In this document: positions 1,566-22,460 of the stretch, piece by piece
Numbering within the stretch: the stretch's first letter is position 1
Layout of the letters: every line of letters starts with the position of its first letter
From: a virus
Strand: one strand, 5' to 3'
IMG/VR virus record: IMGVR_UViG_3300027754_000473
Location: 1-22,460 of that record
Length of the DNA: 22,460 nt
Program-made: the position numbers and the translations under genes
The notes under the pieces: model-generated
Seen by the model: the letters and a program-made list of their open reading frames with translations, nothing else
Told to the model about the DNA's origin: nothing
The model's database searches: none

Positions 1566-2705
1566 ATGGACTTAATTATAGACGGTAACGCCTTTATTAA
1601 TGTCGCAATAAGCGTCACTAAATCTCAGTCTACTAGAGATAAGAGAACTGGTGATGCTTATTATGTTAATGATTTATTTAACGATAGTGGATTTATTTTA
1701 AAGGAACACGTACGAATATCATTTAGAAATTTTTGTTTTACGTATCTAAATTCTTTAATCACTCCAATATCATCTCATCCACAACGAGTTCACATTGTAT
1801 TTGATTCAGCAAGTTGGAGAAAAGAGTATACTAATGAATTTTTCAAAAATTCAGATTTTAAAACTACTTCTGCTCCTACTGAATTTAAGTATAAAGGAAA
1901 TCGTAAATACGATGACCATCAATACCTTTTCTTTGAATATTTCCAAAATGTTCTTATGCCAGCAATGGCTGATCGTACTGGAATAAATCAATATAAATTT
2001 AAAGGTACTGAAGGAGATGACATCATTGCATATTTATGTGATATTCTAAAATGTGATATCCTGATCTACACAGTAGATCAAGACATAAAGCAAACAACTG
2101 GAACTCCTGATAAAAACGTATTAGTGATTACTCCTAAGCAGATGGCAAAACATAAGAGATTATTTAGATCTGCTCAATTAATTCCTACTGCAGCGAATGA
2201 AGAAATAGATAACTTCTTTTCTCTAAGTGATGATCACATTACTGGAGCATCAATAGAAAAAACTATTTCTAATTTACTAAATAAAGACTATGTTGAATAT
2301 ACTGTTGATCTAGTCGATGATGTACTAAGTAAAATATTACTTGGTGATAAATCAGATAATATTCCAAAGATCACAAGCGTTTCTCCAGCAAAAGCTAAAA
2401 AAGTAATCTTAGCTGTCCATGAAAAATATGGGGATGGTGTAATATCACGCATTGACGACCTAGATGATGAAGTAATTAATGGAATTGTTTCAGAAATTCA
2501 AATAGTCAATAAAATAAAAGATCAGGATAAAATAGATGAGATCAGAGAACACTTACTATTTAATATTAAGTTAATTCGTCTCTCTATTAAAGTATTCCCA
2601 GATGAAATCAAAGATGCTCTAATTGAATTCTTTGAATCATATCAAATGACCAATTTTAGTACTCGAGAATTTACTAATTTAAAAAATAATTTATCATTAA
2701 TATGA
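1566..2705 (+). CDS. rnh: 5'-3' exonuclease / RNase H, T4 Rnh-like (FEN superfamily)
   Basis: This enzyme probably removes RNA primers and 5' flaps during lagging-strand maturation, working with the SSB encoded two genes upstream. The 379-residue protein (T4 RNase H has 305) carries the metal-binding acidic motifs of the family in order: IIDGNAF with D6, VFD with D80, EGDDIIAYL (E149, D151, D152), TVDQD (D171, D173) and LGDKSDNIP (259-267), followed by a helix-hairpin-helix-like PAKAKKVI segment. Residues about 195-255 look like an extra insertion before the last motif. It shares the ATGA overlap at 2702-2705 with the GroES gene, which suggests translational coupling. Confidence 0.88.
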   Translation: MDLIIDGNAFINVAISVTKSQSTRDKRTGDAYYVNDLFNDSGFILKEHVRISFRNFCFTYLNSLITPISSHPQRVHIVFDSASWRKEYTNEFFKNSDFKTTSAPTEFKYKGNRKYDDHQYLFFEYFQNVLMPAMADRTGINQYKFKGTEGDDIIAYLCDILKCDILIYTVDQDIKQTTGTPDKNVLVITPKQMAKHKRLFRSAQLIPTAANEEIDNFFSLSDDHITGASIEKTISNLLNKDYVEYTVDLVDDVLSKILLGDKSDNIPKITSVSPAKAKKVILAVHEKYGDGVISRIDDLDDEVINGIVSEIQIVNKIKDQDKIDEIREHLLFNIKLIRLSIKVFPDEIKDALIEFFESYQMTNFSTREFTNLKNNLSLI

Positions 2706-3001
2706 AACCTTTATACGAACGAGTATTAGTTAAACCTAGAGATAAGGAAACTACTACAAAACAAGGAATAATGCTTCCTGAAAAAGCAGTTAAAAAACCA
2801 AATATCGGAGTTGTTATAAGTTGCGGTGATGGTACTAAAAATAATGAAATGGTGGTTAAATCGGGAGATTTAATATTATTCAACCGTTATGCTGGTGCTG
2901 AGCTAACATATCGAGGCGAAAAACACTATGTTATTATGGCAAATGAAATTATTGGAATCTTAGATGATATCAATGATATTTCATTAGAAGAATTTGAATA
3001 A
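2702..3001 (+). CDS. groES: GroES-type co-chaperonin
   Basis: This is the cap of the chaperonin folding cage, probably recruiting the host GroEL to fold phage proteins; T4 uses gp31 for the same task on its capsid protein. At 99 residues it has the length of bacterial GroES (about 97), and the sequence is close to bacterial Cpn10: KPLYERVLVKP (2-12), a mobile loop with the hydrophobic tripeptide I23-M24-L25 after G22 that contacts GroEL, the VVISCGDGT turn, GDLILFNRYAGAEL (about 56-69) and YVIMANEIIGIL at the end. It is thus a genuine GroES homologue and not a gp31-like divergent form. It adds an acidic C-terminal extension (DDINDISLEEFE). It is the last gene of the SSB operon, overlapping the nuclease stop by four bases. 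Confidence 0.93.
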   Translation: MKPLYERVLVKPRDKETTTKQGIMLPEKAVKKPNIGVVISCGDGTKNNEMVVKSGDLILFNRYAGAELTYRGEKHYVIMANEIIGILDDINDISLEEFE

Positions 3002-7298: not shown

Positions 7299-7529
7299 AT
7301 GGATAACATTACCCCAAGTGACAATCAACCTAAATTAAATATTAACTTATCAGATGCTCCTTATCTTGAATGTGAAGCATGCGAAGGAAGAATATTTGAA
7401 GAAAAAATGATGATTAAGAAAGTTTCAAAGTTTATGACTGGGTCAGATCAAGATTCAATAGTTCCTGTTCCAGTAATAGCTTGTTCAGCATGTGGAAATA
7501 TTAACGACTTATTTAAACCGAAAGTATGA
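7299..7529 (+). CDS. Small zinc-ribbon protein of unknown function
   Basis: The 76-residue protein has two CxxC pairs, CEAC (28-31) and CSAC (62-65), about 30 residues apart, which should bind one zinc ion in a ribbon fold. The stretch between them (KKVSKFMTGSDQDSIVPVPV) is well ordered and not low-complexity, and the sequence ends IACSACGNINDLFKPKV. It overlaps the polymerase start in an ATGA arrangement (7526-7529), so the two are probably translated together and may act together. I know no assigned function for this small phage family; a nucleic-acid or protein-docking role for the polymerase is only a guess. Confidence 0.72.
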   Translation: MDNITPSDNQPKLNINLSDAPYLECEACEGRIFEEKMMIKKVSKFMTGSDQDSIVPVPVIACSACGNINDLFKPKV

Positions 7530-8947
7530 TAATTGGAGCAGAAGTATTTAATGACAATACACTAGTTATTTCATATTATGAAGCTAGTGGAAAGATTGGA
7601 TTTATTAAAAAGAGACTAGCTGATCATGAAATGTATAATTGGGTAGAGTCACAAACTCCGACTGCTACTAAAAATTGGAATGGTAAGTTTGTAAAGAAAG
7701 GCCAGTCTCAAGGACAATACATGAATCAGTTTAGAGTTCAAGAATTAATTCAAGAGAAGCTTACTGCAGAAGAATTAGAATTAGTTTATAGTTTTGATAA
7801 TCTTCCTAAGAAAGTCTATTTGGATATTGAGATTAAATTAATTGACGACTCTTTTCCTGAAGCAGATAAAGCTAGAATGCCTGTTGGACTTATTTCTTTC
7901 TGTAATGAAGAAAATGTAACATATATTCTTTCTATTTTAAATACGGATGATCAGCCTGATGGACTTACCTCAGATCAAATTGTTCAGATGGAAAAGGATG
8001 TAAATGCATACTTTAGAAAAACTGTTCCTAAGCGACCTGAAGATTCTAAACTATTCAATCAAGATTTTAAAATAAAATACAAGTTCTTTAAAAGTGAAGA
8101 TGAGCTAATGGCTTTTTACTTTCATAAAACTATGCCAACTTTTAATTTTGTAACTGGTTGGAATGTAACTGAATTTGACTGGAAGTATTTAATGAATAGA
8201 GGCAAGAACCTTAAAATTGATATGATGCAAGAAATGCCATCTAGATCAACTGTTTCTAAAGTTAAAATACCTACTCATTTAGGTGTACTCGATTATATGC
8301 AAGTTTTTGAAAAAATGAAACCATATAAAGTTGTAGAAAACTATAAACTTGATTATATTGCAGATATTGTATTAGGTACTGCTAAATTGCATCATGACTA
8401 TGCATCATTTATGGAATTTCAAAAAGACGTATACTTGTTTACCATGTATAACGTAATTGATGTTATCTTAGTAAAATTAATTGAAGATAAGCTTGCGCTA
8501 TTGGATGTTGCCTTTGCAATGGCAAATGTTGCACAAGTAGATGTAAATAAAGTATTTAGTCCAGTATATATTGCTGAGATCTTAATGTGTCGTGAATTCC
8601 TAAATAAGAATCAAAAAATGATGAAGCTTCCTTGGGGAGAAGAAGTTATGGATGGTACCTATGCTGGAGCCTATGTAAAAGATCCAATTCCAGGATATTA
8701 TAACGCTATTGCATGTTATGATTTCTCTTCAATGTATCCAAATATCCAAATTCAATTTAATATTTCTCCAGATACTTATCTTGGTAAAACAGATAAAGTA
8801 AAGAAGGATGGTACTGAAATACATACAAAAAATGATACTATGTTCTCAAGCAAAGGAGATTCAGTTGCTCGAACAATACTTACTAGATTATATGACGCTC
8901 GTATAAAAACACAAGGTGAAATTAAACAAATTAAAAATTCAAAATAA
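7526..8947 (+). CDS. 43A: Family B DNA polymerase, N-terminal half only (gp43A-like)
   Basis: This is the exonuclease-bearing half of a T4 gp43-type replicative polymerase. The 473 residues show the N-terminal domain, the 3'-5' proofreading exonuclease with Exo I VYLDIEI (D100, E102), Exo II GWNVTEFDWKYL (211-222, D218) and Exo III YNVIDVILV (Y308, D312), then the start of the palm with motif A DFSSMYPN (399-406, D399). It ends after RLYDARIKTQGEIKQIKNSK, at the base of the fingers. Motif B (Kx3NSxYG) and motif C (YGDTDS) are missing, and T4 gp43 is 898 residues long. No frame downstream to 9283 restores them. The catalytic C-terminal half must be encoded elsewhere as a separate polypeptide, as in some Aeromonas T4-like phages with split gene 43. 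Confidence 0.9.
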   Translation: MIIGAEVFNDNTLVISYYEASGKIGFIKKRLADHEMYNWVESQTPTATKNWNGKFVKKGQSQGQYMNQFRVQELIQEKLTAEELELVYSFDNLPKKVYLDIEIKLIDDSFPEADKARMPVGLISFCNEENVTYILSILNTDDQPDGLTSDQIVQMEKDVNAYFRKTVPKRPEDSKLFNQDFKIKYKFFKSEDELMAFYFHKTMPTFNFVTGWNVTEFDWKYLMNRGKNLKIDMMQEMPSRSTVSKVKIPTHLGVLDYMQVFEKMKPYKVVENYKLDYIADIVLGTAKLHHDYASFMEFQKDVYLFTMYNVIDVILVKLIEDKLALLDVAFAMANVAQVDVNKVFSPVYIAEILMCREFLNKNQKMMKLPWGEEVMDGTYAGAYVKDPIPGYYNAIACYDFSSMYPNIQIQFNISPDTYLGKTDKVKKDGTEIHTKNDTMFSSKGDSVARTILTRLYDARIKTQGEIKQIKNSK

Positions 8948-15433: not shown

Positions 15434-17100
15434 TGAGATTATCAGAGTTTTCATATAAGAATATCTTATCCTATGGGAATAAGATTCAAACTTTTAAATT
15501 TGACGATAAACCTGGATTGATCCTCGTGGAAGGAGAAAATGGAAGTGGCAAATCCTCTATTAAAGAGGCACTAACTGTCGCGATCTATGGAAGATCAGCT
15601 ATTCGTAAAATGAAAGATATTCCAAATTGGATTAATAAAAATGCATATACGAATGTTAAATTTACTACAAATTCCGGTGAATTAATTGAATTAGATAGAG
15701 GAATTGATCCTAACTTTAGTGATATTAAAATAAATGGAACTAAATTTAATCTTCCAGATAAAAGAAAAGTAGATGAATTCATTGAAGATGAACTTGCTAA
15801 AATACCATTTTCAGTATTTTGTAATACTATTAGTTTATCATTTGATGATTTTAAATCATTTGTTAATTTAAGTAAAGATGATAAGCGTAAAATAGTAGAT
15901 AGAATATTTGGAATTGATATCTTATCTGATATGCGATCTAAAGTAAAAGATGAACTTCGTGAAAATAAAAGAGAGCTTGACATACTTGATTCTACTCTTG
16001 CTTCAAATGAAAAAAATTTATCTGCATATAGAATTCAATTAACTAATCTAAAAGATAAGATTAGCAAAAAGAAATCTGATATGACTGATAGCTTAACTTC
16101 TAAGATATCTGATTCTACTAACGAATTAGAAGGAGCTAAATTAAAATATCAGGGTATTAAAACACAGCTTGAAAATATAGGAAACTCTAAAACTACTGCA
16201 TCTGATGAATTAAGTAAAGTAAAATCCTCTATTCGAGATCTTAAAGTTAAACTTGAATTATTCAATCAAAACAGGTGCCCGCATTGCTTAAATGATTTAC
16301 ATTCAGAATCATCAATTGAAATAAAAGATAAGATTGATGAAAAACTTGCAAAATTAGAAAAAGCTCTTCCTGAGAAACAGAAAGTTGTAGATGATATAAA
16401 TGACACATCTACTAATCTATTATTAGAAAAAAGTTCAGCTGAATCTGAATATTATAGAGTAAAAGCTATTCTTGATAGTTTGAAAGCATCATTAGAGGCT
16501 GCTAAAGAAACAGATAACTCAGAGGAATTAGTTTCCATTAAAACAATCATTGACGATCTCAGAGATCAAATAAGTAGCGATTCAAATACTCAAATTAATT
16601 TAACAGAAAATAAAAATTTATATCTTAATTTAGATGATCTTCTTTCAGATAATGGAATTAAGAAATCAATGATTGATAAAATTATTCCTACCTTAAATGT
16701 AAGAATTCAAGAAATATCTGAAAAATTAGAATTTAAATTTCCATTTGAATTTGATAGCGAGTTTAATCCATTAATAACTTATCTAGGTATGCAAATATCA
16801 CCGGATAGTTTATCTACAGGTCAGCGTAAAAAAATGAATCTAATCGTTCTTCTTGCATTTATTGAAATAATTAAGATGAAACATAGTCAAATGAATGTAA
16901 TGTTCTTAGATGAGATCTTTAGTTCACTAGATAAAGCTAATGTATATAGAGCTATTTCAATACTTAAAGAATATTCAGAAAAATATGGAATGACTATCTT
17001 TGTAGTATCACATGAATCACTACCTGAAGAATTATTTAATTATAGAATCTGTGTTACTCAACAGGATCACTTTTCAGAGATGGAGATAATTAAAATATAA
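15433..17100 (+). CDS. 46: Recombination ATPase subunit, T4 gp46 / SbcC / Rad50-like
   Basis: This ABC-type ATPase tethers DNA ends and drives the gp47 nuclease. The 555 residues (T4 gp46 has 560) show the Walker A GENGSGKSS (34-42), a coiled-coil arm from about 165 to 390, the zinc hook CPHC (282-285) at the middle of the arm, then the signature LSTGQRKK (460-467), Walker B VMFLDEIFSSLD (489-500) and the switch histidine in VVSHE (524-528). All functional elements are intact. The coiled coil is short, as in phage forms. It ends the plus-strand operon ahead of a bidirectional terminator. Confidence 0.94.
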   Translation: MRLSEFSYKNILSYGNKIQTFKFDDKPGLILVEGENGSGKSSIKEALTVAIYGRSAIRKMKDIPNWINKNAYTNVKFTTNSGELIELDRGIDPNFSDIKINGTKFNLPDKRKVDEFIEDELAKIPFSVFCNTISLSFDDFKSFVNLSKDDKRKIVDRIFGIDILSDMRSKVKDELRENKRELDILDSTLASNEKNLSAYRIQLTNLKDKISKKKSDMTDSLTSKISDSTNELEGAKLKYQGIKTQLENIGNSKTTASDELSKVKSSIRDLKVKLELFNQNRCPHCLNDLHSESSIEIKDKIDEKLAKLEKALPEKQKVVDDINDTSTNLLLEKSSAESEYYRVKAILDSLKASLEAAKETDNSEELVSIKTIIDDLRDQISSDSNTQINLTENKNLYLNLDDLLSDNGIKKSMIDKIIPTLNVRIQEISEKLEFKFPFEFDSEFNPLITYLGMQISPDSLSTGQRKKMNLIVLLAFIEIIKMKHSQMNVMFLDEIFSSLDKANVYRAISILKEYSEKYGMTIFVVSHESLPEELFNYRICVTQQDHFSEMEIIKI

Positions 17101-17116
17101 TAATAATATAAACCTA

Positions 17117-17148
17117 AAAATGGGGATTCTTTTCAGGATCCCCATTTT
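17117..17148. terminator. Bidirectional terminator between gp46 and glycosyltransferase genes
   Basis: AAAATGGGGAT (17117-17127) and ATCCCCATTTT (17138-17148) form an 11-bp stem around a 10-base loop. The A-run on the left and T-run on the right allow it to serve both convergent transcripts. Confidence 0.93.
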
Positions 17149-17162
17149 AAGTATTAATTAGA

Positions 17163-20100
17163 TTAAGCTTGAATAAAACCTATTCCTCCATATTCTGATC
17201 TATGATCTAAAAAATCCATTTTATTTCCTTCTAATTCTGACCATAATTGATCTACTCTACAATTAGCACCTCTATGGAATTCAGTATCCTTAGTATCATG
17301 AAATCCAATCCATCCTCCAGGTTTTACTAAGTGTCTATACATTTCATAATCCTGTTTTACTCCTTCGTAAGTATGATCGCCATCAATAAATAAGAAGTCT
17401 AATAAGTCTCCATTTAATATAGATTCAACTTCTTCTAACATTGTGTATTCATGTGATGAACCCCATAACATAGTTACATTTGAACCTAATGATTTAAGAT
17501 ATTCATCTCTTTCATATTCATTATAATCAGCTCTACCGAATTGTCCATGTGGCATATCGACAGATATTCTAATTCCATCATTTGATAATTTACTCCAGAT
17601 TGCAAAAGATCCTCCTTGATCAGTACCAATTTCCATAAAATTAGTTACATTTAACTCTTTAAAGAATTTAGCAGCTTCAAATATTTCTTTATGGTTTTGA
17701 ACCATTCCTAAATCATATGATTCTTGAACAATTACTTCTACTGATTTTTCAGCATATCCTAATTCATGATATCTTTCAATTTCTTTAATTACATCACCTG
17801 CAGATATTATACTTGTACATTCAAATTGGCGACGAGTTCCTTTTTGATCTGGGCACCAATTCCAATCACCTGCATCTAATCTATGTCGATTAAAACATCC
17901 ATTACATCCTCCTCCTTTAAATACTCTAATTACATTAGTATCAAATATCTCAGTTGAAGGTAAACTAAAGCCAGAAATTAAAACAGTTGGTGTTCCTACT
18001 GCCCATGATAACCAACTTAATCCTGACCCGACTCCTATAAACATTTCACTATGTTTTAAGTGAAGAATAACATTTGCAAGTGTATCTGGACCCTGTTTTC
18101 TAATTGCTCCATTAGGATAATTATTTTGCATATATCCATCTTCTTCAAGCCCTATAATAATTACCTTTAATCCATTGTCTAAAAAATAATTAGTTAATTC
18201 TTGCCAGCCAGTTGGATTATTCCAATATTTTGCTTGTGCAGTTGCATGCATTGCGATACATACATATTTTCCATCTATTGGCGAATTTCCAACCGGAATT
18301 GTTAAATTAGGTTTAACTGTCGAATGAGGTAATCCTAATATATCACATGTAGTAGATTGCATTGGAAGTTTTCTAAAATCATTACAGTGATATTCACTAT
18401 TTATTGTTCCATCACCATTATAAAACCAACCAATTTTATATTGTGCATATAAACCATGAACTATTTCTCCAGGTTGAACGAATGTTATATTAGAATAATT
18501 ATCTCTAAATAATTCATTTTTAAAAGTACTTACTATTACTTCACAATTATGTTTCTTTCTAAATTCTTCAATTTGTGGAAACCATGCAAGAGAATCACCT
18601 AATGCACTTGATTCAAGTGAAATTAAAACTCTTTTTTCAGTAAGATCAATATCTTCTTCATATACTTCCATAGTATCTAAATTAGTTATTTTAACTTTCC
18701 AATCTACGAAATATTTAATATTACTTCTAACCCAGCAATTAATACCGATTATATTTGAATAAAGAATTGAATTACTTTCACCATCGATTAATTCTATTAA
18801 GAATCTACTGTCACTCTGTCCAGTAATCTCAACAAATGCACCATTAATAAAATTAATATTATAATTAATTGTTTCTAGTCTAGTTTCTAATTCTAGTTCT
18901 CTAATGTAATTTGGATTTGATATCATACACGTTGCTTTTTTAGTTGAATTAGTATATTCTTTTTTTATTTTTAAATTAGGAAAGTCTATTGAGAATCCAT
19001 CATTCAGTAAATATTGAGGTATCTTATATGCAATAATTTCACGAGGTGCAAGAAGAGATTCAATAGATTTATCTTGATATTTGATGAGATAAAAAATAGA
19101 TTCACTCTCTGCACCAACTAAACATAAGTAGTTTTCCCCAGCTTGATTTTGTGCAAGATATACAAAACCGTCTCCGCCAGACTTAGTTGTTAATTGAGGA
19201 TATGTTGAAAGAATAAAACTATTAATAATATTTTTCTTTTTAATAGATTCAATATTATTTACCTCTATATCTAGTCCATATGAATCACATGCAGCAAAAA
19301 GCACATCTTCTAATATTACTTTACCTTCATATGCAAAATAACTTGCTTTAGTCGTAAATTGAGCAAGCGCAGAACTTAACATTCCTACATTTGCTGAAAA
19401 GAATGCTGAATTTATTGAACCTTCTCCATTCCATGAATAAGCAATCATATCGTGTTCTATCAATTCAATATGATGCGATTTTAATAATTCAGTATCATCT
19501 ATAATATAATCATAATTTATAAAATGAGCAGTTGAACAATTATTAGCTTTTGCAATACCTAATCCATTTTTAATAAGTTTCATTGCTGCGAATCCATGAT
19601 TAAAATCAAATGAATATGATAAATCAAAATCAGCATATCGAATATAGTGAATTGGTACAGTATTTGAAAAAGTGTGATATTCATCTGGATAAACTACTGG
19701 ATTATCTCTATCAAATACTACATAATCAGCTATTTCATAGAATTCTGCAGGTACTTCAATATGCGATGAGATAATTACAAGTAAACCTTGATTTTTTAAA
19801 GTAATTACTGATCTTCTTAATAGAGACAATTTTTCTTCAGTATCTGCATGCGACATTATAATTGCTGCCTCATCTTTTCGACTAACTTTAAGATCAAGCG
19901 AAATAACCTTTTTTAGTTCTTCAAATCCTTCGTGTCCAACTTTTTCCCAGTTAAATTCCTGGTAAATAAGATCAGCTTCTTCTCTAGCTAATTTCTTCTT
20001 TTCTCCCCAATTCTCAAAGCAGTCAATTAATACTTCTTTAAGATTTTCGAAATCAGGTTCAGCATATACACCTGGAGTATTTCCAGCAAAACCTAGATCT

Positions 20101-21062
20101 GCTCCGATATTTGCAGGTAATTCATTTACTATTTTTACAGGATTTCCTTTTCCTCCAGCAAATTCAAGTTGTGCTCCCCAATTAGAATAAATTACAGGTG
20201 TTCCTGCAACCATTGCTTCAATTAATGGAATATTCCAGCCTTCACTACGTGCACAACTTATTAAGACATGTCCATTTTTAAGATAGTCTTCATATTCTTC
20301 TCTATTTAGAAAATGTTTAACCTTAATTTGATCATCAATTAGATCATAGTGAGCAAGTCTCTCTTCAGTAGACTTTAATCCATCTATTGAATATGGATTA
20401 TCCGCACTTAATATTAATTCAACTTCATCATTATCTGGAAATGCTTCTAGAAATGCTTTAACTATTTCAGGCACAGATTTACGATAGTCCCATCTTCCAA
20501 AAAACATAAATTCAAAACTTTCTCTAGCTTTTCTACTTTCTGGTTTAAAATATAATGATTCACCAACTCCTTCGTGTACTACAAATACTCTATGTTCAGG
20601 ATATCCTTGCTTAATTACTACCTCTTTATGCCATTCAGTTACAACCCATAAATAATCAAATTTTAATAATTGATTAAAGAAATCTTCAGGTAATTCAGTA
20701 CTTTCCCAAACAGTATATGCAATTTTAACCTTGGCAGAATACTCTTCATAGAAATAATAGTGATTCATATCCATTAAGACAATATCAATATCCTGCTTAA
20801 AATTTGATAATTCAGTATTTTTCCAGGGATAATTCGGAAGGCCTTTAGTAATACTATAATCTAAATCCTTTTCTCCATCCTTTAAAGTAATCGTATCAAT
20901 TATTCGATAATCTATATCATTTAAGTAATTTGGATCGATATCCCAAGTATAGTTTCTTACTCTTAGATCTACATGCTTTGATAATTCTCTAAAAAAGGAT
21001 CTTGCGTGTGCTGCATATCCAGTTTTTCCTAAATAGCACGTATGAGCTCTTACTTTTAACAT
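17163..21062 (-). CDS. Multi-domain glycosyltransferase (GT4 + GT-A-like + GT9/TibC-like) fused to a methyltransferase
   Basis: The 1299-residue protein has four parts. Residues 1-385 form a GT4-type glycosyltransferase: MLKVRAHTCYLGKTGYAAHARSF, FFGRWDYRKSV (187-197) and SEGWNIPLIEAM with the E-x7-E pair (E274, E282). Residues 396-625 look like a GT-A-like domain (LLVIISSHIEVP, HFINYDYIIDD). A beta-rich stretch (690-808) leads to 811-1098, a GT9-like domain of the autotransporter heptosyltransferase (Aah/TibC) type: RVLISLESSALGDSLAWFPQ, CIAMHATAQAKYWNNPTGWQ, FIGVGSGLSWLSWAVGTPTVLISGF and four cysteines (C1053, C1056, C1070, C1082) that match the iron-binding set known in TibC. Residues 1120-1299 form a class I SAM methyltransferase (FMEIGTDQGGS, DFLFIDGDHTYEGVKQDY, LVKPGGWIGFHD). 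It lies downstream of the tail fibre gene. Substrates are unknown. Confidence 0.85.
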   Translation of the reverse strand: MLKVRAHTCYLGKTGYAAHARSFFRELSKHVDLRVRNYTWDIDPNYLNDIDYRIIDTITLKDGEKDLDYSITKGLPNYPWKNTELSNFKQDIDIVLMDMNHYYFYEEYSAKVKIAYTVWESTELPEDFFNQLLKFDYLWVVTEWHKEVVIKQGYPEHRVFVVHEGVGESLYFKPESRKARESFEFMFFGRWDYRKSVPEIVKAFLEAFPDNDEVELILSADNPYSIDGLKSTEERLAHYDLIDDQIKVKHFLNREEYEDYLKNGHVLISCARSEGWNIPLIEAMVAGTPVIYSNWGAQLEFAGGKGNPVKIVNELPANIGADLGFAGNTPGVYAEPDFENLKEVLIDCFENWGEKKKLAREEADLIYQEFNWEKVGHEGFEELKKVISLDLKVSRKDEAAIIMSHADTEEKLSLLRRSVITLKNQGLLVIISSHIEVPAEFYEIADYVVFDRDNPVVYPDEYHTFSNTVPIHYIRYADFDLSYSFDFNHGFAAMKLIKNGLGIAKANNCSTAHFINYDYIIDDTELLKSHHIELIEHDMIAYSWNGEGSINSAFFSANVGMLSSALAQFTTKASYFAYEGKVILEDVLFAACDSYGLDIEVNNIESIKKKNIINSFILSTYPQLTTKSGGDGFVYLAQNQAGENYLCLVGAESESIFYLIKYQDKSIESLLAPREIIAYKIPQYLLNDGFSIDFPNLKIKKEYTNSTKKATCMISNPNYIRELELETRLETINYNINFINGAFVEITGQSDSRFLIELIDGESNSILYSNIIGINCWVRSNIKYFVDWKVKITNLDTMEVYEEDIDLTEKRVLISLESSALGDSLAWFPQIEEFRKKHNCEVIVSTFKNELFRDNYSNITFVQPGEIVHGLYAQYKIGWFYNGDGTINSEYHCNDFRKLPMQSTTCDILGLPHSTVKPNLTIPVGNSPIDGKYVCIAMHATAQAKYWNNPTGWQELTNYFLDNGLKVIIIGLEEDGYMQNNYPNGAIRKQGPDTLANVILHLKHSEMFIGVGSGLSWLSWAVGTPTVLISGFSLPSTEIFDTNVIRVFKGGGCNGCFNRHRLDAGDWNWCPDQKGTRRQFECTSIISAGDVIKEIERYHELGYAEKSVEVIVQESYDLGMVQNHKEIFEAAKFFKELNVTNFMEIGTDQGGSFAIWSKLSNDGIRISVDMPHGQFGRADYNEYERDEYLKSLGSNVTMLWGSSHEYTMLEEVESILNGDLLDFLFIDGDHTYEGVKQDYEMYRHLVKPGGWIGFHDTKDTEFHRGANCRVDQLWSELEGNKMDFLDHRSEYGGIGFIQA

Positions 21063-21067
21063 AAAAA

Positions 21068-21100
21068 TTCCTTTATATTAATTATATTAATATAAAGGAA
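21068..21100 (-). promoter_or_regulatory. Perfect hairpin covering the glycosyltransferase ribosome-binding site
   Basis: TTCCTTTATATTAAT and ATTAATATAAAGGAA form a perfect 15-bp stem with a 3-base loop (21083-21085). On the minus strand the second arm ends in AAAGGAA, followed by TTTTT and the ATG at 21062. AAAGGA is the only good Shine-Dalgarno in the window and would be hidden in the stem. Hairpin plus T5 could equally act as a weak terminator after the fibre gene. Either way it should lower glycosyltransferase expression relative to the fibre. Confidence 0.6.
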
Positions 21101-21124
21101 AAAGTTTCACAGTAGAATAATCTA

Positions 21125-22460
21125 TTATAAACTATTCTTTAGATCTTCGAGTGAATCCGCCGTTTTAATCTTATTGATTAAATGTTGCAGTGCACCAAAT
21201 AATGTTTTATATAATTGATCTGCATTCAACGAATGAAAATCTTCGAATCCATGTTCTGCACTATATGATACTGCCTTTGGAAATACTTCCTTTACTTCTT
21301 GTGCAATAAATCCAATCGCATTTCTATCATCTACTTCTGGATAATAATTTTCATCCCACGTAAACCGCTTTAATGATATTCCAGTAACTATATCGTAACA
21401 TGTTTGAAGATTTGCAGGTTCAATATTCGTCTTTACTCGAGCATCTGACCCAGTTAACCAAGTAGTACTCGTTAATTTTCTTGCACCATCTGTTGATAAA
21501 TCTAATTGATATGCTGGAGATGCTGTACCTAGTCCTATTCTAGAAGTTGTTCCATCAAATAATGCAATAACTCCATTTTTTCCATTATAGATACCAGTAG
21601 TTCTAAATTGAGTCGTTCCAGTGTTATATCCTCTATAATTAATATATAATTGATCTGCTGCATTCCCAGAATTTAACCATATCTCATTACTGTTTCCTAT
21701 TGCAATCGGACCGATTATATTAACATTGCCTACAAAATTAGCCGATACTTCTATTTTACCTAATGCAAACAAATTACCTGTAGTTGATTCAATTGTTACT
21801 AGATTTTGTTCTACTGCTGATAAAATTGTTCCTCTAAAATTAAATCCTCTATTTGAAGTATCTGTACTAAAATTAACACCGTCGTCATTTATTCCAACAG
21901 ATAGAGTATAACCTGAAGTACTTGTTCCAGTAGTTAATTTAATTCCTTGATTTCCATTTATTATATGTAATTTAGCTGTAGGTACAGTTGTCCCTATTCC
22001 AACATTGCCACTCGCATGAACAATAGACATCTTTTCTCCCCAAGCAGTTCCACTATATCCCCATATTGTAAACTTACCAACTCCTTGTTGTAATGAAGTA
22101 TAAGATGAGCCAGACCCTCCTACAAAATAAATATTTGCTCCTGCTTGGATTGTATCACTTGGTCCTGATAATAATCTTAATGATGGATCAGAATATGTAA
22201 AATTAGCTTCTCCTTGAATAGTATTAGCTAGGCCAGTTGCAGTAAGTACATAATTATCTACATTACTATTAATTGTTATGCTTGATCCACTAGAACCCGA
22301 CGTGCCTGAACTGCCTGAACTACCTGATGTACCGCTAAGTCCACTAGAACCAGATGTACCACTAGATCCACTTGTTCCACTAAGTCCACTAGAGCCTGAT
22401 GTACCACTAAGTCCACTTGTTCCACTAGATCCACTTGTTCCACTAGAGCCAGAAGTACCT
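21125..22460 (-). CDS. Tail fibre protein with collagen-like repeats and S74 intramolecular chaperone (5' end missing)
   Basis: The frame is open from the right edge (22459) to the stop at 21125, giving the last 444 residues; the methionine at 22030 is internal. The visible N-terminal part is a run of about 19 Gly-X-Ser triplets (GTS, GSS, GLS), then SITINSNVDNYVL and a fibre shaft. Head-like repeats VGIGTTVPTAKLHI and IGLGTASPAYQLDL follow. The end is a peptidase S74 (endosialidase-type) chaperone beginning WLTGSDARVKTNI, with the Ser and Lys five residues apart as in the endosialidase autocleavage dyad, and including AIGFIAQEVKEVFPKAV and the helical end LYKTLFGALQHLINKI. The chaperone directs trimerisation and is then cut off. 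It probably recognises host surface glycans or proteins. Confidence 0.87.
   Translation of the reverse strand, partial: GTSGSSGTSGSSGTSGLSGTSGSSGLSGTSGSSGTSGSSGLSGTSGSSGSSGTSGSSGSSITINSNVDNYVLTATGLANTIQGEANFTYSDPSLRLLSGPSDTIQAGANIYFVGGSGSSYTSLQQGVGKFTIWGYSGTAWGEKMSIVHASGNVGIGTTVPTAKLHIINGNQGIKLTTGTSTSGYTLSVGINDDGVNFSTDTSNRGFNFRGTILSAVEQNLVTIESTTGNLFALGKIEVSANFVGNVNIIGPIAIGNSNEIWLNSGNAADQLYINYRGYNTGTTQFRTTGIYNGKNGVIALFDGTTSRIGLGTASPAYQLDLSTDGARKLTSTTWLTGSDARVKTNIEPANLQTCYDIVTGISLKRFTWDENYYPEVDDRNAIGFIAQEVKEVFPKAVSYSAEHGFEDFHSLNADQLYKTLFGALQHLINKIKTADSLEDLKNSL
22286..22460 (-). repeat. Gly-X-Ser tandem codon repeats in the fibre gene
   Basis: Nine-base units encoding Gly-(Thr/Ser/Leu)-Ser are repeated without a break, in mixed order and with varying third codon positions (GGA/GGT/GGC, AGT/TCT/TCA). 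They continue past the window edge. The protein would form a collagen-like trimeric rod with one or two hydroxyl side chains in every triplet. The repeat region is likely to vary in length by recombination. Confidence 0.9.

Follow-up and report, generated by a model that had tools for sequence, protein, structure and literature searches.

Organization of the locus

The window analysed here, which is the entire 22,460-bp IMG/VR record IMGVR_UViG_3300027754_000473, derives from a freshwater phage with a T4-like backbone, the UvsX of which has relatives at 78-96% identity in records of at most 271 kb. On its minus strand lies a gene for a 1299-residue protein that combines a GT4 glycosyltransferase, a GT-A-like domain, a transferase of the TibC type and a methyltransferase, directly preceded by a gene for a collagen-like tail fibre. 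Sequence and fold comparisons, together with counts over contigs, identify the domains and their conserved residues and reveal a partnership with Ser/Thr-rich collagen-like proteins, with which the enzyme is jointly present or absent; on these grounds, it is likely that the phage enzyme O-glycosylates Ser and Thr residues of its own collagen-like tail fibre and then extends and methylates the glycan. The features of the locus are the following.

17163..21062, minus strand: 1299-residue open reading frame (ORF) with GT4, GT-A-like, TibC-type transferase and methyltransferase parts, the same fusion being found in relatives L002-L006
19875..21062, minus strand: GT4 glycosyltransferase, residues 1-396, with an E-x7-E motif (E274/E282), from PF00534, phrog_2170 (5.9e-33) and the motif
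18870..19874, minus strand: GT-A-like domain, residues 397-731, with a C-terminal beta-rich part, from a structure model and conservation
17763..18869, minus strand: complete TibC-type domain (beta-barrel, GT-B core and iron finger), residues 732-1100, from TIGR04414, 4RAP and a model
18594..18596, minus strand: Asp823, by alignment the equivalent of the TibC catalytic base Asp110
17817..17906, minus strand: iron-finger segment with C1053, C1056, C1070 and C1082, which align with TibC Cys339/342/358/370
17166..17762, minus strand: class I S-adenosylmethionine (SAM) methyltransferase of the CmcI/rhamnosyl O-methyltransferase kind, residues 1101-1299, from PF13578 and PF04989
21125..22459, minus strand: tail-fibre gene, directly upstream of the enzyme gene on the same strand with a 63 bp gap, from phrog tail fibre families
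21269..21448, minus strand: S74 intramolecular chaperone at the C-terminus of the fibre (PF13884, 55 bits)
22280..22459, minus strand: collagen-like (GTS/GSS)n repeat of the fibre, with 62% Ser+Thr over the 60 visible residues (PF01391, 33 bits)

The 1299-residue frame runs uninterrupted from an ATG at 21062 to a stop codon at 17163 and is open on the minus strand only. A preliminary description of this DNA had placed a single frame at these positions, leaving its strand unstated, and had read it as a four-part glycosyltransferase/methyltransferase in one phage polypeptide; the frame is intact and all four parts are real. An origin of the fusion in a frameshift or an assembly artefact was rejected, since five relatives in IMG/VR share the identical four-part arrangement, with TibC parts that are 54-63% identical to that of the window.

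The adjacent fibre is the probable substrate of the enzyme. The preliminary description had overlooked both this (GTS/GSS)n fibre in that role and the generality of the pairing between TibC-type enzymes and collagen-like proteins.

The TibC-type domain

Residues 732-1097 match NCBIfam family TIGR04414 with 306.7 bits, 107 bits above the cut-off of 200, whereas the same protein scores 19.7 bits against lipopolysaccharide (LPS) heptosyltransferase I. Residues 733-1110 match PDB entry 4RAP (E 1.2e-60), and the predicted structure of this part (pLDDT 86, predicted template-modelling score, pTM, 0.86) superposes on 4RAP with a template-modelling (TM) score of 0.83 over about 376 columns, the N-terminal beta-barrel included, while the next-best folds, WaaC-type GT9 enzymes, reach about 0.4-0.5. 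The preliminary description had recognized the TibC character of this four-cysteine domain and had numbered its cysteines correctly, but its start at residue 811 is about 80 residues late (the domain begins at about residue 732), so that the beta-barrel was left out and counted into the GT-A block. Neither of the two outcomes that it had named beforehand as contradicting it, another fold and cysteines that vary among homologues, was observed: the fold is that of TibC, and the cysteines are invariant.

In TibC, Asp110 is the candidate base, Thr226, Lys230, Arg286 and Trp305 serve ADP-heptose, and the iron-binding residues Cys339, Cys342, Cys358 and Cys370 are required for both dodecamer formation and activity (Yao et al., 2014; PMC4358343). 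A comparison of 83 distinct TibC-type domains from phages and bacteria (31-63% identity; TibC reference row, residues 23-397) revealed no variation (83/83) in the four iron-finger cysteines or in the equivalents of Asp110, Lys230 and Trp305, the position of Thr226 being occupied by Thr or Ser. The window protein keeps the equivalents of Asp110, Thr226, Lys230, Trp305 and Phe368. On the other hand, in the alignment with TibC the adenine-reading Arg286 is replaced by Val and Pro300 by Gly, and Phe265-Val266 of TibC, in the hydrophobic beta-hairpin thumb that serves the dodecamer, become Tyr-Met in a loop that is three residues shorter. Arg286 is kept in all 24 domains of the autotransporter clade described below and in 12 of the 56 of the window clade, P-values on such counts ignoring relatedness. 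As judged from these alignments, the catalytic and iron-finger residues are kept in the window clade and the base-reading residue is usually lost, for which reason the donor in this clade may not be ADP-heptose.

The window domain belongs to the TibC superfamily by its fold and catalytic residues and is not a bacterial autotransporter heptosyltransferase (BAHT) in the strict sense, because neither Arg286 nor an autotransporter partner was found when both were sought. The transfer of heptose to an autotransporter, which the preliminary description had carried over from TibC/Aah, finds no support in that form: the window enzyme has the Val and Gly substitutions, and no autotransporter neighbours occur in the scanned loci of the clade.

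As regards donor supply, a search for ADP-heptose synthesis in phages gave rfaE_dom_II above the cut-off in one searched virus record (G026) and below it in the other matches; a cytidylyltransferase-like gene of Microcystis phage Mel-JY01 had no NCBIfam match. Record G026, with its rfaE_dom_II (HldE-type) protein, also has a TibC-type gene (L418, G026:65787-66893) that is divergent and retains Arg286, and this phage perhaps brings its own ADP-heptose.

The accompanying domains and their fusions

The GT4 assignment of the preliminary description is borne out by PF00534 (46.3 bits against a cut-off of 26.4) and by the motif E274-GWNIPLI-E282. Similarly, the SAM-binding methyltransferase that it had placed at the C-terminus matches PF13578 (Methyltransf_24; 64 bits, cut-off 26.3) and PF04989 (rhamnosyl O-methyltransferase/CmcI; 30.9 bits, cut-off 23.2), and residues 1101-1299 are, by family, a predicted sugar-type O-methyltransferase.

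Residues 397-731 had no family match in profile searches of the window protein. Their model (pLDDT 79, pTM 0.71) yields only moderate GT-A matches (E 3e-7, TM about 0.40), and the Tyr-Asp of an NYDY motif (516-519) is invariant; the GT-A-like block of the preliminary description is moderately supported in its fold, and its boundary, which took in the N-terminal beta-barrel of the TibC part, is not upheld. The top PDB match of this block is COLGALT1 (E 3.4e-7), at a TM score of 0.40 and 11% identity and with many other GT-A folds close behind; it was rejected as a sign of a collagen enzyme because it is too weak.

The same modules recur in other combinations. Besides the GT4-GTA-TibC-methyltransferase fusion of the window and L002-L006, there are loci of the L007 type (GT4-x-FkbM plus methyltransferase-GTA-TibC), a locus with FkbM-GT4-GTA plus a stand-alone TibC-type protein (L029), GT4-TibC fusions (L403, L411, L414 and L421) and FkbM-...-GT4-TibC fusions (L409 and L410). 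This recurrence of modules in varied fusions supports a single pathway, in which a first sugar would be placed on protein, extended and methylated.

Pairing with Ser/Thr-rich collagen-like proteins

Most phage loci picked by enzyme sequence alone contain a Ser/Thr-rich Gly-X-Y (GXY) ORF near the TibC-type gene; where such a locus lacks any collagen-like ORF, the record is usually a fragment that includes little sequence upstream. Since picking contigs by the enzyme would be circular, a reverse test was carried out on phage contigs of at least 30 kb that had been selected by nothing but a degenerate (GTS)(GSS)(GTS)(GSS) DNA pattern (n = 44), a GGNCC collagen pattern supplying the control set (n = 32). 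A TibC-type domain is present in 24/44 repeat-picked and 0/32 control contigs (Fisher 9e-8); when the same tables are restricted to contigs of at least 60 kb, the counts are 20/25 and 0/14. The C-terminal region of the fibre, used as a query for control loci, gave ten pattern matches and no confirmed one, so that the pattern-picked contigs and the UvsX relatives of the window phage served as controls.

Among the close UvsX relatives, six of 25 records contain a TibC-type domain, these six representing only a few lineages. The repeats occur in five of the six and in none of the 19 others, and the sixth record ends less than 1 kb past its TibC-type domain, where a sister record has repeats. In six relatives that share the UvsX-to-gp46 backbone, the site is occupied by other genes and holds neither a TibC-type domain nor a Ser/Thr-rich collagen ORF; one of these relatives contains a Gly-Pro-Gln collagen and no TibC-type domain. 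From the counts in the UvsX and backbone relatives, the enzyme and the Ser/Thr-rich fibre appear to come and go jointly as a cassette. The region itself, positions 17100-22460, is a variable cassette beside the gp46-like gene when compared with these six relatives (L429-L434), each with the same backbone and different genes there.

In the sampled phage contigs, fibres with Ser/Thr-rich Gly-X-Y sequence are recurrent and reach about 3,000 residues. A 735-kb megaphage has a Ser/Thr-collagen ORF close to its TibC-type gene, and a 636-kb megaphage (LR756504) has a TibC-type domain with no Ser/Thr-collagen within 15 kb. Stand-alone TibC-type genes that keep Arg286 were also seen near GQGGQG/GYTGRTG collagens of about 10% Ser+Thr (L029:78-5886 and L045:241-5803), which possibly represent a second substrate type within the clade.

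Phylogeny and bacterial members

A tree of 78 TibC-type domains was built by a quick method, with support from the Shimodaira-Hasegawa-like approximate likelihood-ratio test (SH-aLRT) only. An autotransporter clade of 24 rows (support 100) includes ten with an autotransporter/AIDA neighbour and none with a collagen, TibC itself being scored as an autotransporter row from the literature. A collagen-associated clade of 50 rows (support 93) includes 37 with Ser/Thr-collagen neighbours and none with an autotransporter; the collagen share within this clade is raised by selection, because part of its rows were fetched by the repeat pattern, which was not used to fetch the bacterial members or the enzyme-picked loci.

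The 50-row clade also holds chromosomal genes of Methylobacter, Methylomicrobium and other Methylococcaceae, as well as one from a Polaromonas metagenome-assembled genome. In these bacterial loci a collagen-like ORF lies 8-110 bp from the TibC-type gene, the distance in the methanotrophs being 41-110 bp, and the three neighbours that were read combine a signal-peptide-like N-terminus with (GTS), (GTA) or (GTT) repeats. One of the loci is not obviously prophage, since it adjoins the gene of a transcription-repair coupling factor.

Proposed function and alternative explanations

In the model that is considered likely, the TibC-type part would place a first sugar on many Ser and Thr residues of the (Gly-Thr/Ser-Ser)n repeat, with Asp823 as the base and Lys945 and Thr941 holding the donor phosphate. 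This step would be cytoplasmic and would precede or accompany the assembly of the fibre, and the first sugar may be other than heptose. The GT4 and GT-A-like parts would then add one or more further sugars, and the C-terminal methyltransferase would O-methylate the glycan; the preliminary suggestion that one protein builds and caps a short glycan would fit this domain composition. The fibre stalk would thereby acquire a coat of short methylated glycans, the benefit of which is perhaps a steadier proline-poor triple helix, protease resistance or a shaped adsorption. Acceptor, donor, order of steps, sugars and purpose are inferred from the observations above.

A broader proposal, to which even chances are given, is that the TibC family has a second branch in large environmental phages and methanotrophs that is dedicated to O-glycosylating Ser/Thr-rich, collagen-like (Gly-Thr-Ser)n triple helices, most of its members using some donor that is not ADP-heptose, and that one-protein assemblies in phages extend and methylate the glycan of the tail fibre.

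Several observations weigh against fibre glycosylation as proposed here. The 5' end of the window fibre is cut by the end of the record, so that only part of its repeat is visible, and the GT-A match is weak (TM 0.40). Twenty of the 44 repeat-bearing contigs lack a TibC-type domain, many of them fragments and some longer than 100 kb, and in eight of the 24 TibC-positive contigs the Ser/Thr-collagen lies beyond about 10 kb of the TibC-type domain. A few clade members (L029 and L045) adjoin Ser/Thr-poor collagens, and for one member from a bacterium (L051) no collagen lies within reach. The association counts are not phylogenetically independent, the presence of TibC may in part be a mark of large phages whose tail regions are hypervariable, and the collagen-associated clade rests on an SH-aLRT value of 93 in a quick tree.

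An enzyme that alters a surface glycan of the host, whether LPS, O-antigen or capsule, and so might prevent superinfection, is an unlikely alternative, albeit the one that survives best; this is the role commonly suggested for glycosyltransferases encoded in the tail regions of marine phages. Enzymes of the GT9, GT4 and GT-A kinds are typical of LPS and O-antigen synthesis, and O-antigen clusters also hold sugar O-methyltransferases. Glycosyltransferases of the same hypervariable region in pelagimyophages have moreover been read as host-surface modifiers (PMC7029224). However, the TIGR04414 score lies far above that for LPS heptosyltransferase I, the beta-barrel and the iron finger, which are features of protein O-glycosyltransferases, are retained, and the linkage is specifically with Ser/Thr-collagens, also in bacteria and outside phages.

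It is decidedly improbable that the target is some other protein of the virion, be it capsid, sheath or a different fibre, and that the enzyme gene only happens to lie beside the collagen-like fibre. Virion proteins of mycobacteriophages are glycosylated, to the extent that the work of Freeman et al. (2023) is represented in PMC12691614, and some TibC-positive contigs have no Ser/Thr-collagen within 10 kb; yet almost every partner is a Ser/Thr-rich GXY protein, and methanotrophs, which have no virion, show this pairing as well.

Little credence is given to an ordinary BAHT that would transfer ADP-heptose onto an autotransporter or adhesin of host or phage, with an incidental collagen neighbour. 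The equivalog cut-off of TIGR04414 is passed and four of the five donor and catalytic residues are kept, but Arg286 is Val in the window protein and is mostly lost in a clade that lacks autotransporter neighbours, and rfaE_dom_II exceeded its cut-off in only the one searched virus record. Glycosylation of phage DNA is hardly credible: DNA glycosyltransferases are common among T4-like phages and the backbone is T4-like, but no domain resembles the DNA glucosyltransferase or arabinosyltransferase families, the gene belongs to the fibre cassette, and the enzyme is absent from close relatives whose replication genes are the same.

To our knowledge, there is no account of how proline-poor, Ser/Thr-rich Gly-X-Y helices stay stable or protected, and a dedicated enzyme partner would make this question directly testable. 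If glycosylation of the fibre is confirmed, phages would own a protein glycosylation factory, the catalogue name 'autotransporter O-heptosyltransferase' would over-annotate the whole clade, and enzymes would become available for adding sugars to recombinant collagen-like materials.

Other features of the window

A GroES-type co-chaperonin (Cpn10, 81 bits) is encoded at 2702-3001 on the plus strand. The ORF of a family B DNA polymerase (7526-8947, plus strand) matches Pfam DNA_pol_B only to position 143 of 453 and stops early, and the rest of the polymerase is supplied by no other scanned ORF of the window, which corresponds to a split or interrupted polymerase gene.

Comparison with known systems

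TibC-type enzymes, glycosylated bacterial collagens, a viral collagen glycosyltransferase and glycosylated phage virions are already known. A search of the open-licence literature yielded no account of TibC proteins in phages or of a link between the TibC family and Ser/Thr-collagens. UniProt A0A6J5SVC1 bears the automatic name 'Glycosyltransferase Aah/TibC [uncultured Caudovirales phage]', and phage TibC proteins have thus been annotated but, it seems, not discussed.

Among the closest known cases is WWT39291.1 of Microcystis phage Mel-JY01 (L001), which combines GT4, GT-A and TibC parts in 1227 residues near a Ser/Thr-collagen ORF. It lacks the C-terminal methyltransferase of the window protein and is labelled 'methyltransferase FkbM', its TibC part having been missed. 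In the same phage a 1016-residue frame (L001:2-3052, plus strand) contains 606 residues of Ser/Thr-rich collagen repeat; the record places two 'hypothetical proteins' over it on the opposite strand (1-651 and 739-2298), and the fibre is probably misannotated.

The virion proteins of mycobacteriophages likewise carry glycans (Freeman et al., 2023, cited in PMC12691614), although neither a multi-domain enzyme of the TibC type nor a collagen fibre came up in the account of that citing paper. BclA of the Bacillus exosporium is also a bacterial collagen-like repeat with sugars, but in a spore context in which no TibC-type enzyme has been reported (PMC8968730). The lysyl hydroxylase/glucosyltransferase L230 of mimivirus is, as is proposed here for the window protein, a viral enzyme for the collagen-like protein of the virus itself; it glucosylates hydroxylysine with a glycosyltransferase domain related to human GLT25D1, whereas the window protein would use a GT-B domain of the TibC type on Ser/Thr acceptors (PMC9614988).

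With TibC and AAH (TIGR04414; PDB 4RAP and 4RB4; PMC4358343) the window protein shares the whole domain, from the beta-barrel and the GT-B core to the four-Cys iron finger. It differs from them in its fusion to GT4, GT-A and methyltransferase parts, in the Val and Gly at the positions of Arg286 and Pro300, in its placement in a separate clade and in its partner, which is a Ser/Thr-rich collagen-like S74 fibre rather than a strand-loop-strand autotransporter.

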